Shown one piece after another: positions 2,745 through 18,672 of a stretch of 64,000 nucleotides of DNA. The stretch comes from Pontixanthobacter rizhaonensis. GTDB taxonomy: Bacteria; Pseudomonadota; Alphaproteobacteria; Sphingomonadales; Sphingomonadaceae. The notes below the pieces were generated by a model. The model saw nothing but the letters and a program-made list of their open reading frames with translations. It ran no database searches and was not told the origin of the DNA. Position 1 is the stretch's first letter. Every line of letters begins with the position of its first letter. The position numbers and the translations under genes were made by a program. The stretch is from positions 547,001 through 611,000 of the forward strand of contig NZ_JABCRE010000002.1 in the NCBI RefSeq assembly GCF_012972675.1. The letters are read 5' to 3'.

Positions 2745-3545
2745 CTATTTTTTAGGTGGTGCGCCGCGCAGTTTGCCGCGATGGGCATTGAGGTCGAATA
2801 CTTCACCCGGGCTGTTATCCTCATTACCAAGGATACCCAGCCTGCGTGCGACTTCTTGATAGGCTTCCTCTTCGCCGCCCAAATCACGGCGGAAACGGTC
2901 CTTATCAAGCTTCTCGTTGGTTTCCATATCCCACAACCGGCAGCCGTCAGGGCTGATTTCATCCGCCAGAATAACCCGGCTGAAATCGCCCTCATACATC
3001 CGGCCGAATTCCAATTTGAAATCCACCAAACGGATATTGATTGCGGCAAACATCCCGCACAGAAAGTCGTTAACGCGGATCGCCATAGAGGAAATGTCCT
3101 GCATTTCGTCTTGGCTGGCCCAGTTGAAACAGGCGATATGTTCTTCAGCGACGAGCGGGTCGCCCAGGGCATCATCCTTGTAACAATACTCGATCAAAGT
3201 GTGTGGCAGCGGCTCACCTTCTTCAAGGCCGAGGCGTTTGCAGATTGATCCGGCAGCGACATTGCGCACAATCACTTCGATCGGCACAATCTCTACCTGC
3301 CGAACAAGTTGTTCGCGCATATTCAAGCGGCGGATAAAGTGAGTCGGGATTCCGATATGGCTGAGCCGGGTAAAGACATATTCGCTAATGCGATTATTGA
3401 TCACGCCTTTACCGTTGATCGTGCCCTTTTTTTCCGCGTTGAACGCGGTCGCATCGTCTTTAAAATACTGAATGATCGTACCCGGCTCTGGACCTTCATA
3501 GAGGATCTTGGCCTTGCCTTCGTAAATTTGGCGACGACGGGTCAT
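2745..3545 (-). CDS. purC: Phosphoribosylaminoimidazole-succinocarboxamide synthase
   Basis: SAICAR synthetase of de novo purine synthesis: ATP-dependent joining of aspartate to CAIR in the cytoplasm. The 266-residue protein begins [13 protein letters not shown] and contains the family segments DFKLEFG and [15 protein letters not shown] chose the ATG at 3545 over an in-frame codon 42 nt further upstream because AAGGAA lies about 7 nt before it and the family N-terminus starts exactly there. The M16 peptidase gene follows 53 nt downstream. No other pur genes are in the window. Confidence 0.96.
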
Positions 3546-3717
3546 GCACGGTTCCTTGAAATAACAGCGCCCCGGCTGGCGAGACAACAGCGTCTGCGCG
3601 TCCGGGGCGTGGGGCCTATTTACCGTGCTGGGCAGAAAAGTGCAATCGGCGGATGTGCAAGGCTGTGGTCATCCGTAGATCGTGCATCGCGATTGCCAAT
3701 CCTAGGCATTGGTCAAC

Positions 3718-15567: not shown

Positions 15568-16518
15568 TTAGACTGTTTCGCGGGATTTGATTGCCGAACC
15601 GACATGACGTTGTAGCGTCTGACGGTACCGCTTCATCGAAGGTGCGGGCATCCGCTGTTTGCGGGGGACTGCATTGGCGGTTGGCGATGCTGGTGTTTTT
15701 AGGTCCAATTCGCCAACAAACTTGATGATCTCATCCGAATTGCGGACGGTCATATTCGTCATTCCCGGTAGATCGCCACAATCTGCGTGGGTCAGCCCGA
15801 ACATGAACAATTCGCGATAGGCAACCCGTTCCGTCAAGCCGGATAGAAGCCTTACCCCAAGGTGGGCTGGCAATTGGTCCAATGCACTGTCAAAACGTTT
15901 TAGTTGCAGCTTCTCAGCCCATCTGACGCGGTTCTTCACCAGCATCCAATCAGTGCCCGGCAGCCCGCGCTCACAGCGTTCAGCCCGCAGCTCCGCCACA
16001 GTTTCTGCGAACCGGCCCAGACGTGCAAAGCGCATGGTGGCAGCGTTGAAATGGGCAACCGAGTCCAAATCAATAAAGGTCGGGTTGACTGGTGTAATCA
16101 GCTTATCTGCCATCGCGATCGCGCGGCGCGCAATCGGCGAATCGTGTCCCGCCACATCAATAACGATATGCGTAGCACCAGCACCGACACGGGCGATTTC
16201 TTGCGCCAGCATCGCGCCAGTTTGATGTTCCAGCACAATCGGCTGCGGGCTGGGTAGGTCGATCCCCAAGCTACGAGAGGTCGCTTCGCGGTTCTCTAAC
16301 GCACGGGAAAACGATTGCTGTCTGCGATCGAGGTCAATAGCGAGTACTTTGCTACCTGAACGCGCCAAAGCGATGCTGGTGTGGAATGCCAGCGTTGATT
16401 TGCCGACGCCGCCTTTTTCATTGGCGAAAACGATGATCTGGGCTTTGATCTCGGGGCGACGACAAATATCGGCCAAAACGACCGAAGGATGCTCTCCGTT
16501 AGAGTGCTCAAAATCCAT
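15568..16518 (-). CDS. mipZ: Division-plane positioning ATPase MipZ
   Basis: A 316-residue ParA/MinD-superfamily ATPase with the deviant Walker A KGGVGKST at residues 35-42, then VLAIDLDRRQQSFSRALENR and HIVIDVAGHDSP. In Caulobacter, MipZ forms a bipolar gradient through ParB and inhibits FtsZ, so division occurs at mid-cell. The MipZ-type DLDRRQ segment separates it from ParA. A TTG 12 nt further upstream is a possible alternative start; I prefer the ATG. It has a basic C-terminal tail. The upstream control region holds a GANTC palindrome and a DnaA box. It is not next to parAB here. Confidence 0.88.
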   Translation of the reverse strand: MDFEHSNGEHPSVVLADICRRPEIKAQIIVFANEKGGVGKSTLAFHTSIALARSGSKVLAIDLDRRQQSFSRALENREATSRSLGIDLPSPQPIVLEHQTGAMLAQEIARVGAGATHIVIDVAGHDSPIARRAIAMADKLITPVNPTFIDLDSVAHFNAATMRFARLGRFAETVAELRAERCERGLPGTDWMLVKNRVRWAEKLQLKRFDSALDQLPAHLGVRLLSGLTERVAYRELFMFGLTHADCGDLPGMTNMTVRNSDEIIKFVGELDLKTPASPTANAVPRKQRMPAPSMKRYRQTLQRHVGSAIKSRETV

Positions 16519-16544
16519 CAAAACCCCCAAAGTTTAGATCCAGT

Positions 16545-16558
16545 CGATTCGCGAATCG
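16545..16558. promoter_or_regulatory. Palindromic double GANTC (CcrM) site upstream of mipZ
   Basis: The 14-bp sequence CGATTCGCGAATCG is a perfect palindrome carrying two GANTC sites (GATTC 16546-16550, GAATC 16553-16557), 28-40 bp before the mipZ start. GANTC is the target of the alphaproteobacterial cell-cycle methyltransferase CcrM and is read by GcrA. In Caulobacter mipZ transcription depends on GANTC methylation. That the site works this way here is inference. Confidence 0.55.
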
Positions 16559-16589
16559 GCCAGCTGCGAGAGTGTCTAGGTTTTAGGAG

Positions 16590-16598
16590 TTATCCACA
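16590..16598 (+). promoter_or_regulatory. DnaA box in the mipZ-uvrC intergenic region
   Basis: TTATCCACA matches the strong DnaA-box consensus perfectly. It lies 72 bp upstream of the mipZ start and 110 bp upstream of the uvrC start, 32 bp from the GANTC palindrome. A single box is not an origin, so transcriptional control by DnaA is the simpler reading. Confidence 0.6.
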
Positions 16599-16707
16599 AG
16601 TAAAAAGTCGAATAATGTCGTGCTATCGGCCGATTGAAGTTCGGTTCGTACTCGCCTGAAGCCAAACGAAAACTTCCAATCTGGGCGGGCGAGTCTATTG
16701 GTGGGGG

Positions 16708-18672
16708 ATGTCTCGAACAGGTTCGCCCACCTCGGCCGGAGCGCCGCATGATCCGCGCGGTGCGGAACGCTTCAACGAGGAGAAGGCGACCTATACTGTC
16801 GCGTCCGCGCAACCCAACCTTCAGGCCGGGTTGGAAGCGATCAAAGAAACCGTCAAAACGCTGAAACCTATTCCCGGGGTTTACCGAATGCTCGATACGC
16901 GCGGAGACGTTTTGTATGTTGGCAAGGCGAGAGCGCTCAAAAACCGGGTTGCCAATTATACGCAGCAAAACAACCTGACCCAGCGCTTGCTCAGAATGGT
17001 GAGCCAAACCCGCCGGATGGAGATTGTCACTACCAATAGTGAAGCGGAAGCGCTGCTGTTGGAAGCGCAGTTCATCAAGCGTTTCAGGCCGCCATTTAAC
17101 GTGTTGCTGCGCGACGACAAAAGCTTCCCTTTTATCTTGCTTCGGTCCGATCACGGTTATCCGCGGATCATGAAGCATCGCGGCGCGCGCCGGGCGAAGG
17201 GCAATTATTACGGGCCTTTTGCCAGCGCGGGAAGTGTCAACACGACCATCAATGCCTTGCAAAAGCTGTTTCTTTTGCGGTCCTGTACGGACAGTTTCTT
17301 TAGCCGCCGTGACCGGCCGTGTTTGTTGTATCAGATCAAACGATGCAGCGCCCCTTGCGTTGGCCGGATTGACGAGGCCGGTTATGCCGAACTGGTCAAG
17401 CAGGCGCAGGATTTTTTGGGCGGCAAAAGTTCCGCTGTGCAGTCGGGCCTTGAAAAACAAATGGCCAAAGCGGCTCAGGATTTGGATTTTGAGACCGCAG
17501 CGATTTTGCGGGACCGGCTGCGTGCGGCGACTTTTATTCAAGGCAGTCAGGCGATCAATGCCAGCGGTGTAGGCGATGCAGACGTGTTCGCTTTATCCAG
17601 CAAAGGCGGGCAAATTGCTGTGCAGGCCTTTTTCATTCGCGGCGGTCAAAATTGGGGGCACCGCGCCTTTTTCCCGCGCCACACGAAGGATGTGGAGGAA
17701 GGCCAAGTGCTAGCCAATGTGCTGGCGCAGTTTTATGAGGAAGTGCCCCCGCCAAAAACTATTTTGGTGGACCGTGAATTGCCCGAACAAAAGCTGATTG
17801 AAGAAGCGTTTGGCGCAAGTGCGGGAAGTAAGGTTGATATCTCTGTTCCGCAGCGCGGTGACCGGCGCAAACTGATGCAACAGGCGCAGCGTAACGCTGT
17901 TGAGGCTCTCGAACGGCGTCTTGCGGAAAGCGGCACCAAAGCCAAAACCTTGCGCGAGATGACGGAGTTTCTTGAACTGGCGGACATTCCCCAGCGGATC
18001 GAAGTGTATGACAACAGTCATATTCAAGGCGCGAAAGCCGTTGGCGGTATGATCGTTGCGGGGCCTGAGGGCTTTCTGAAGAACCAGTACCGTAAATTTA
18101 ATATCAAGACTGCGCAGACCAACGATGACTTCGGCATGATGCGTGAAGTGATGCATCGCCGTTTCAGCCGTGCGATGAAAGATGATCCCGACCGTGAAAC
18201 CAGCGGTGAGAAGGCAGTGTGGCCCGATCTGGTCCTGATCGATGGCGGTAAAGGCCAGATGAGCGCTGTAAGGGATACGTTGGAAGAGCTAGGGATCGAA
18301 GATGTCCCGCTTATCGCGATCGCCAAGGGCCCGGATCATGGCAGGGAAGGGCGCGAAGTGTTCCACTTCCCAGACGGGCGCGAGAAGACCCTGCCAACCA
18401 ATTCCCCCGTGCTGTTCTATTTGCAGACCCTGCGCGATGAAGTGCACCGCTATGCCATCGGCGCGCACCGGGCCAAGCGCAGCCGTGCGATCACTGCATC
18501 ACCGCTGGACGAAATACCGGGCATTGGTCCGGCGAGAAAGCGGGCGCTGCTGCTGCATTTCGGCACCGCCGGCAAAGTGCGTGCAGCATCGTTGGAGGAT
18601 CTGCAGCGGGCACCAGGCGTCAGTGAAACGGTGGCTCAGACGATTTATGATTTTTATCATGCAGGTGGTTAG
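16708..18672 (+). CDS. uvrC: UvrABC system protein C (excinuclease subunit C)
   Basis: The 654-residue UvrC makes the 3' and 5' incisions in nucleotide excision repair. The N-terminal GIY-YIG nuclease is seen as GVYRMLDTRGDVLYVGKA (about residues 57-74). A UVR motif near 255-275 (AAQDLDFETAAILRDRL) binds UvrB. The RNase H-like nuclease carries DNSHIQGAKAVGGM and LVLIDGGKGQM. The C-terminal helix-hairpin-helix pair DEIPGIGPARKRALL binds DNA. The first 45 or so residues precede the family core, so an internal start is possible. It is divergent from mipZ. Confidence 0.96.
   Translation: MSRTGSPTSAGAPHDPRGAERFNEEKATYTVASAQPNLQAGLEAIKETVKTLKPIPGVYRMLDTRGDVLYVGKARALKNRVANYTQQNNLTQRLLRMVSQTRRMEIVTTNSEAEALLLEAQFIKRFRPPFNVLLRDDKSFPFILLRSDHGYPRIMKHRGARRAKGNYYGPFASAGSVNTTINALQKLFLLRSCTDSFFSRRDRPCLLYQIKRCSAPCVGRIDEAGYAELVKQAQDFLGGKSSAVQSGLEKQMAKAAQDLDFETAAILRDRLRAATFIQGSQAINASGVGDADVFALSSKGGQIAVQAFFIRGGQNWGHRAFFPRHTKDVEEGQVLANVLAQFYEEVPPPKTILVDRELPEQKLIEEAFGASAGSKVDISVPQRGDRRKLMQQAQRNAVEALERRLAESGTKAKTLREMTEFLELADIPQRIEVYDNSHIQGAKAVGGMIVAGPEGFLKNQYRKFNIKTAQTNDDFGMMREVMHRRFSRAMKDDPDRETSGEKAVWPDLVLIDGGKGQMSAVRDTLEELGIEDVPLIAIAKGPDHGREGREVFHFPDGREKTLPTNSPVLFYLQTLRDEVHRYAIGAHRAKRSRAITASPLDEIPGIGPARKRALLLHFGTAGKVRAASLEDLQRAPGVSETVAQTIYDFYHAGG

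Follow-up and report, generated by a model that had tools for sequence, protein, structure and literature searches.

The region between a MipZ-family gene and uvrC in the window (the whole stretch of DNA analyzed, 64 kb in length) carries putative sites for both CcrM and DnaA, and this raises the question of which gene the sites serve and what they do there. The MipZ-family gene (15568..16518, minus strand) encodes a P-loop ATPase of 316 aa, identified by Pfam, phmmer, a phylogenetic tree, and a structure model, and is hereafter referred to as the mipZ paralogue, an assignment that is justified below. Its ATG at 16518 is preceded by a G-rich stretch, which may be the ribosome site. The divergent neighbor is uvrC (16708..18672, plus strand; NCBIfam uvrC, 548 bits). 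As the preliminary description reported, a palindrome with two GANTC sites and a perfect DnaA box are present between the two genes. The self-complementary palindrome CGATTCGCGAATCG (16545-16558, no strand), read directly from the DNA, contains GATTC (16546-16550) and GAATC (16553-16557), two putative CcrM sites that lie 28-39 bp upstream of the paralogue ATG, which is on the minus strand. The DnaA box TTATCCACA (16590-16598, plus strand; TGTGGATAA on the paralogue's strand) stands 31 bp beyond the palindrome. A third GANTC, GAGTC (16691-16695, no strand), is located immediately upstream of uvrC.

The genome encodes two MipZ-family proteins, that of the window and a second one, L002. Relatives of the window gene were sought with a profile built from 20 paralogues, which found the paralogue in 43 of 397 genomes of the family, representing 17 of 96 genera. 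The set was defined by a gap in the scores, with matches at 389.7 bits or more and the next score at 313.8 bits. Within the window's genus, one genome (G179) had no match. In a sample of 385 genomes of the class, only the window's own genome reached E 1e-95 with this profile, and none of the 380 that fall outside the family matched at this threshold. A scan of named contigs found relatives in Pontixanthobacter (best, 67%), Parerythrobacter, Pelagerythrobacter, Tsuneonella, Novosphingobium, and other genera; 53 named loci were scored, 24 were examined for boxes, and four of these had a perfect box.

The distribution of the DnaA box was analyzed in the 260 bp preceding the Walker motif, which was used as the reference point because start codons had been assigned by hand for the first 20 paralogues. 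A perfect box was present upstream of 23 of the 43 paralogues (10 of 17 genera), reading TGTGGATAA on the strand of the gene in 22 cases, and 31 paralogues (14 of 17 genera) had a box with at most one mismatch. No perfect box was found upstream of 29 true mipZ genes, which belong to the L002 lineage. In the 19 genomes for which both genes were read, a perfect box accompanied 14 paralogues and none of the true mipZ genes. L002 itself has a one-mismatch box, the one such case among the true mipZ genes. Boxes on the opposite strand were perfect in one genome (G350) and near-perfect in four others (three g79 genomes and G255). The box is dispensable in some lineages, since genera g7 (eight genomes), g20 (one genome), and g69 (three genomes) retain the paralogue with no box, even at one mismatch. 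The relatives are not independent, and P values are therefore indicative only. Taken across these genomes, the DnaA box is conserved at the paralogue promoter, the position of which is predicted.

GANTC sites were analyzed for 26 coding-strand boxes, comprising the 22 perfect ones and four that read TTTTCCACA. A GANTC was found within 65 bp downstream of 24 of these boxes, compared with 9% of equal windows in the same loci; the two boxes that had no nearby GANTC were those of G002 and G062. Two layouts were apparent: box and GANTC are 41-46 bp apart in the genus of the window as well as in several others, and 11-14 bp apart in G096, g5, g65, and G015. The sites at the paralogues were mostly GATTC, GAATC, or GAGTC. 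When every GANTC within 200 bp was counted, 33 of 43 paralogues had at least one, versus eight of 29 true mipZ genes, and the nearest upstream GANTC of L002 is 194 bp before the start.

The preliminary description had suggested the symmetric double GANTC as a possible different layout of conserved wiring, and had named absence of the palindrome and the box from close relatives as an observation that would count against its interpretation. Relatives retain the box and one GANTC, at either of the two distances given above; the palindrome is absent from most of them. The doublet with a spacing of 7 occurred upstream of only three of 43 paralogues, all in the window's genus, and GANTC-NN-GANTC was found at eight places in the genome, compared with ~4 expected when the GANTC density of the window is extrapolated to the whole genome. 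The doublet as such does not clearly exceed chance, and it was rejected as a conserved feature on these two counts. Judging from the relatives, a single conserved GANTC has been elaborated locally into the symmetric double site. The window contains threefold fewer GANTC sites than expected (74 observed, 243 expected), which agrees with reports of GANTC depletion in alphaproteobacteria (PMC3973325). A second GANTC-NN-GANTC doublet is located at positions 3341-3352 of the window, inside the minus-strand frame 2745-3587 (purC by eye).

The perfect DnaA box is the sole one in the window and one of six in the 2.79-Mb genome, in which a reversed control pattern occurred 14 times. The chance of finding a perfect box, computed from the genome count, is ~5e-4 per 250 bp, and the box near the paralogue is beyond chance. 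Five of the six boxes are upstream of ftsZ, ccrM, the paralogue, rpsB, and trxB, and one is within serA; ftsZ and ccrM were confirmed by profile search, and rpsB, trxB, and serA were named by eye. All six fall within 313 kb of one contig (G000:C2 429219-741878). The ccrM gene scored 607 bits, the best match but under the NCBI cut-off of 830, and gcrA scored 83 bits. In the window's genome, GANTC sites are located 32 and 49 bp past the start of the ftsZ box, and two GANTC sites lie just upstream of the ccrM box. The boxes upstream of the rpsB-like and trxB-like genes (L186 and L187) are perfect and have no GANTC nearby.

Control regions of ftsZ and ccrM were read at 30 loci each, with four further ftsZ places and three further ccrM places left out of the counts. 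A perfect box was found upstream of ftsZ at 22 of 30 loci; a GANTC followed within 61 bp of 16 of these boxes, and none was found there for the other six. Upstream of ccrM, the perfect box was present at 28 of 30 loci. At 22 of the 30, GGACTCACCC was kept directly upstream of the box, and likewise at 22 of the 30, two GANTC sites occurred in the 30 bp preceding it. At least four GANTC sites were found in 200 bp at 27 of 30 ccrM loci, many at near-fixed positions. The sites of ccrM precede the box, unlike those of the paralogue, where GANTC follows it. The ccrM control region (L184, L226-L255) appears more conserved than the region in the window.

Ten further genomes contained four to eight perfect boxes each. 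In 11 genomes, including that of the window, 27 of 61 perfect boxes were upstream of ftsZ, ccrM, or the paralogue, a proportion that is no unbiased rate because the genomes were not chosen blind (the ten added ones were drawn from 34 after ftsZ and ccrM loci had been read, six of them for their perfect paralogue box). All three genes had a perfect box in seven of the 11 genomes. The ten added genomes contained 31 boxes elsewhere, of which 17 loci were examined: rpsB recurred once (G064, L259; by eye), G062 had two boxes near each other upstream of an mraZ-like frame (by eye), and these 17 loci revealed no further gene common between genomes (by eye).

A class-wide scan of 385 genomes for a ccrM-like element gave matches in 27, in most cases with one mismatch. 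Of the five genomes sampled from the family, four had the exact element, always upstream of ccrM. The one other genome with an exact match is from a different family, and there the element precedes a gidA/mnmG-like gene (by eye) and not ccrM. The element may not be confined to the family, since a one-mismatch match was located upstream of ccrM in a genome outside it (L302).

On the paralogue's strand, a predicted −35 element, TTGTGG (16594..16599, minus strand), overlaps the DnaA box, and a predicted −10 element, GACACT (16571..16576, minus strand), is 17 bp from it. A consensus scan of this region of the window found no sigma-70 promoter. TTGTGG-17-GACACT is found, unchanged in sequence and spacing, in G054 and in the seven genomes of the window's genus that carry the paralogue, and is a plausible promoter. 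It would set the transcription start near 16564, with the first GANTC at about +8 and the palindrome just downstream of the predicted start. In front of ccrM in the window's genome, TTGACG and CACCCT are spaced by 17 bp, and the box extends over the end of this −10 and the start. Paralogues of g3, g65, and G015 have TGTTA just upstream of the box, an arrangement similar to that of ccrM. The box would thus overlap the −35 element, or the −10 element and start site in ccrM and in some other genera.

We consider it fairly likely that ftsZ, ccrM, and the MipZ paralogue belong to a small set of DnaA/CcrM-coupled promoters and that the region in the window acts as the promoter for a second MipZ-type ATPase. 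Since the predicted −35 or start site is overlapped by the box, DnaA bound there would occupy promoter DNA, and it probably competes with RNA polymerase. GANTC sites ~8-15 bp past the start would allow promoter strength to be set by GcrA and the fork-dependent methylation state. Replication would impose a common timing on the three genes, which would be held back while active DnaA is high, and their expression would change after passage of the fork and remethylation by CcrM. The paralogue itself is probably an ATP-dependent dimer that acts on the nucleoid or division site, alongside true MipZ. We infer DnaA binding, methylation, and the sign of control at these promoters from sequence. Points against the proposal are the boxless lineages, the boxes on the opposite strand, the negative consensus promoter scan, the paralogue and ftsZ boxes that lack GANTC, the placement of the ccrM GANTC sites ahead of the box, and the loss of some DNA-contact residues in the window protein.

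The main rival to occlusion is that DnaA at the box activates transcription and leaves the polymerase unobstructed. DnaA activates some promoters in Caulobacter, and an activator can work from a box at −35. DnaA has, moreover, been named as a probable regulator of the timing of ftsZ and mipZ in Caulobacter (PMC3708114). The boxes of ccrM and of the class 2 paralogues, however, are on the predicted −10 or start, where activators would seldom bind. We regard activation as somewhat unlikely and prefer competition with the polymerase.

A more distant alternative is that the 9-mer is not read by DnaA and is instead a promoter element, or a site for another protein, that coincides with the DnaA consensus. 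The class 1 9-mer does overlap a likely −35 element. The position of the 9-mer relative to the predicted promoter nevertheless varies among ccrM, ftsZ, and the two classes of paralogues, and yet the nine bases are usually kept. They also equal the DnaA consensus of many bacteria. This explanation is unlikely.

Less probable still is that the gene is mipZ itself and that sphingomonads inherited the DnaA/CcrM control known from Caulobacter with an altered site layout, as the preliminary description suggested. The gene does belong to Pfam MipZ (PF09140, 209 bits, cut-off 20.7), both signals are involved, and Caulobacter mipZ has a conserved CGACTC near its transcription start as well as DnaA motifs (PMC3708114, PMC4287350). 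The label mipZ thus holds at the level of the Pfam family, but L002 is the better mipZ, scoring 380 bits with the same profile and 225.9 bits with phmmer against Caulobacter MipZ (2xj4), compared with 135.9 bits for the window gene. L002 adjoins frames that resemble panC and a DnaJ-type protein (by eye). In a maximum-likelihood tree of 53 proteins, the true copies and Caulobacter MipZ fell on one side of a branch with support of 100/98, and a constraint placing Caulobacter MipZ with the paralogues was rejected (p-AU 0.0045). The Caulobacter row in this tree is a 235-residue fragment on a long branch, and support for grouping the paralogues together is weak (74/76). The tree was rebuilt after removal of ParA-type outgroup rows, whose long branches had disturbed the first tree. 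We rejected the window gene as true mipZ on the higher Pfam and phmmer scores of L002 and on the disagreement with the tree. By these comparisons, the window gene is a mipZ paralogue, and the orthologue of Caulobacter mipZ is the L002 lineage, elsewhere in the genome. Conserved cell-cycle wiring, the broader claim of that description, stands in that the box and a GANTC are found in many relatives and are common to ftsZ and ccrM; it is not supported as the mipZ wiring of Caulobacter, given the counts of perfect boxes and GANTC sites at true mipZ genes, and L002 lacks both signals near its start. A Pfam MipZ match in these genomes may be the paralogue, which calls for caution in annotation.

Residues of the paralogues were compared using the roles assigned to MipZ residues in PMC7229837. 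Equivalents of K13, K18, D40, and D42, which include the deviant Walker A signature lysine and the catalytic aspartate, are kept in all 43 paralogues. Among the DNA-contact residues, R198 is kept in 38 of 43 and R221 in 42 of 43. The window gene has R198 and R221, with leucine in place of R194 and threonine in place of R219; R219 is also absent from the 29 true MipZ copies. An AlphaFold model of the window protein had a pTM of 0.85, and its five best PDB matches were MipZ chains (best E 7e-20). The paralogue is likely an active ATPase, because the ATPase residues are kept in all paralogues and two key DNA-contact residues in most, and the predicted structure is MipZ-like. The stretch at its N terminus exceeds that of true MipZ in length, frequently has a GEHPSVV-like motif that is missing, with the stretch itself, from 11 true MipZ proteins aligned, and is possibly a partner-binding peptide. 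A helix is predicted at residues 11-19 in this part of the protein. Sphingorhabdus and other sphingomonad records (L162-L170, L172, L173, and L176) contain a third group of MipZ-like proteins, whose N-terminal stretch is rich in proline. Five proteins of this group formed a separate branch (100/100), and the DnaA box was absent from the 300 bp upstream examined for the group.

The sites lie within a region shared by two divergent genes and might instead serve uvrC and the timing of DNA repair. In genomes in which no paralogue was found, a perfect box was present upstream of one of 23 uvrC genes (L100), and the paralogue keeps its box where uvrC is not adjacent (g3, g5, and g65). At L100 (around 3585), uvrC and an acyltransferase-like gene (names by eye) have no paralogue between them, and the DnaA box remains; in the window, this acyltransferase-like gene comes next after the paralogue (by eye). 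The L100 box is likely a remnant or a reused promoter, since it persists where the paralogue is missing. Ownership by uvrC was rejected on the control count and the L100 case: uvrC probably does not own the box, and a role in repair timing seems very improbable. Chance is hardly credible as the source of the whole arrangement: the 9-mer and the 5-mer are short and the doublet itself may well be fortuitous, but the sites are conserved, relatives keep the box with one GANTC, and the box is common to one set of genes.

CtrA is the usual master of the alphaproteobacterial cell cycle. It has been reported to be dispensable in Sphingomonas melonis (PMC8116508, PMC7200025), which bears on how sphingomonads time their division. 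As a tentative extension, which we regard as possible and short of probable, DnaA in this sphingomonad lineage may report directly to the FtsZ/CcrM/MipZ-paralogue set, in which the MipZ paralogue would be specific to the lineage. The methylase gene and its target promoters would then answer to the initiator rather than, or besides, CtrA; one initiation event would time ring assembly, remethylation, and the second ATPase; and true MipZ would have been released from the circuit. Perfect boxes are few per genome and recur at ftsZ, ccrM, and the MipZ paralogue, which provides a short, testable list of candidate direct links from the start of replication to division and methylation.

A literature search, whose coverage mostly left out subscription papers, found nothing on this set of promoters, and nothing on MipZ in the genera concerned. 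What is new here is the variant of the promoter set and the correction of gene identity; duplicate MipZ in Magnetospirillum and predicted DnaA sites at ccrM are precedents. Among the closest known systems is that of the Caulobacter mipZ and ftsZ promoters (Gonzalez and Collier 2013, PMC3708114), in which CcrM methylation activates both genes via a conserved CGACTC, located between −35 and −10 in ftsZ and near the start in mipZ. The two systems share a GANTC near the start of a MipZ-family gene and at ftsZ, with DnaA as a probable regulator. In Caulobacter, it is the true mipZ that carries CGACTC, whereas here the gene is a paralogue, a perfect DnaA box overlies its predicted promoter, and ccrM shares the box. 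Magnetospirillum gryphiswaldense likewise has two MipZ-like proteins in one alphaproteobacterium, MipZ1 and MipZ2, of which MipZ2 has a minor role and is found at the division site (PMC7022226); the pairs are likened by their description. Brilli et al. (2010, PMC2877005) predicted control of ccrM by DnaA, mainly where CtrA sites are lacking, and the DnaA motif upstream of ccrM is common to their analysis and ours. They used one weight matrix, which they noted to be low in specificity, and mipZ is unnamed in their main text, whereas the box described here is exact and was found at nearly all ccrM loci read. GcrA-dependent methylated promoters (Fioravanti et al. 2013, PMC3667746) also have GANTC at a cell-cycle promoter; the window's genome has genes for both GcrA and CcrM, and the corresponding control of the paralogue promoter is predicted.
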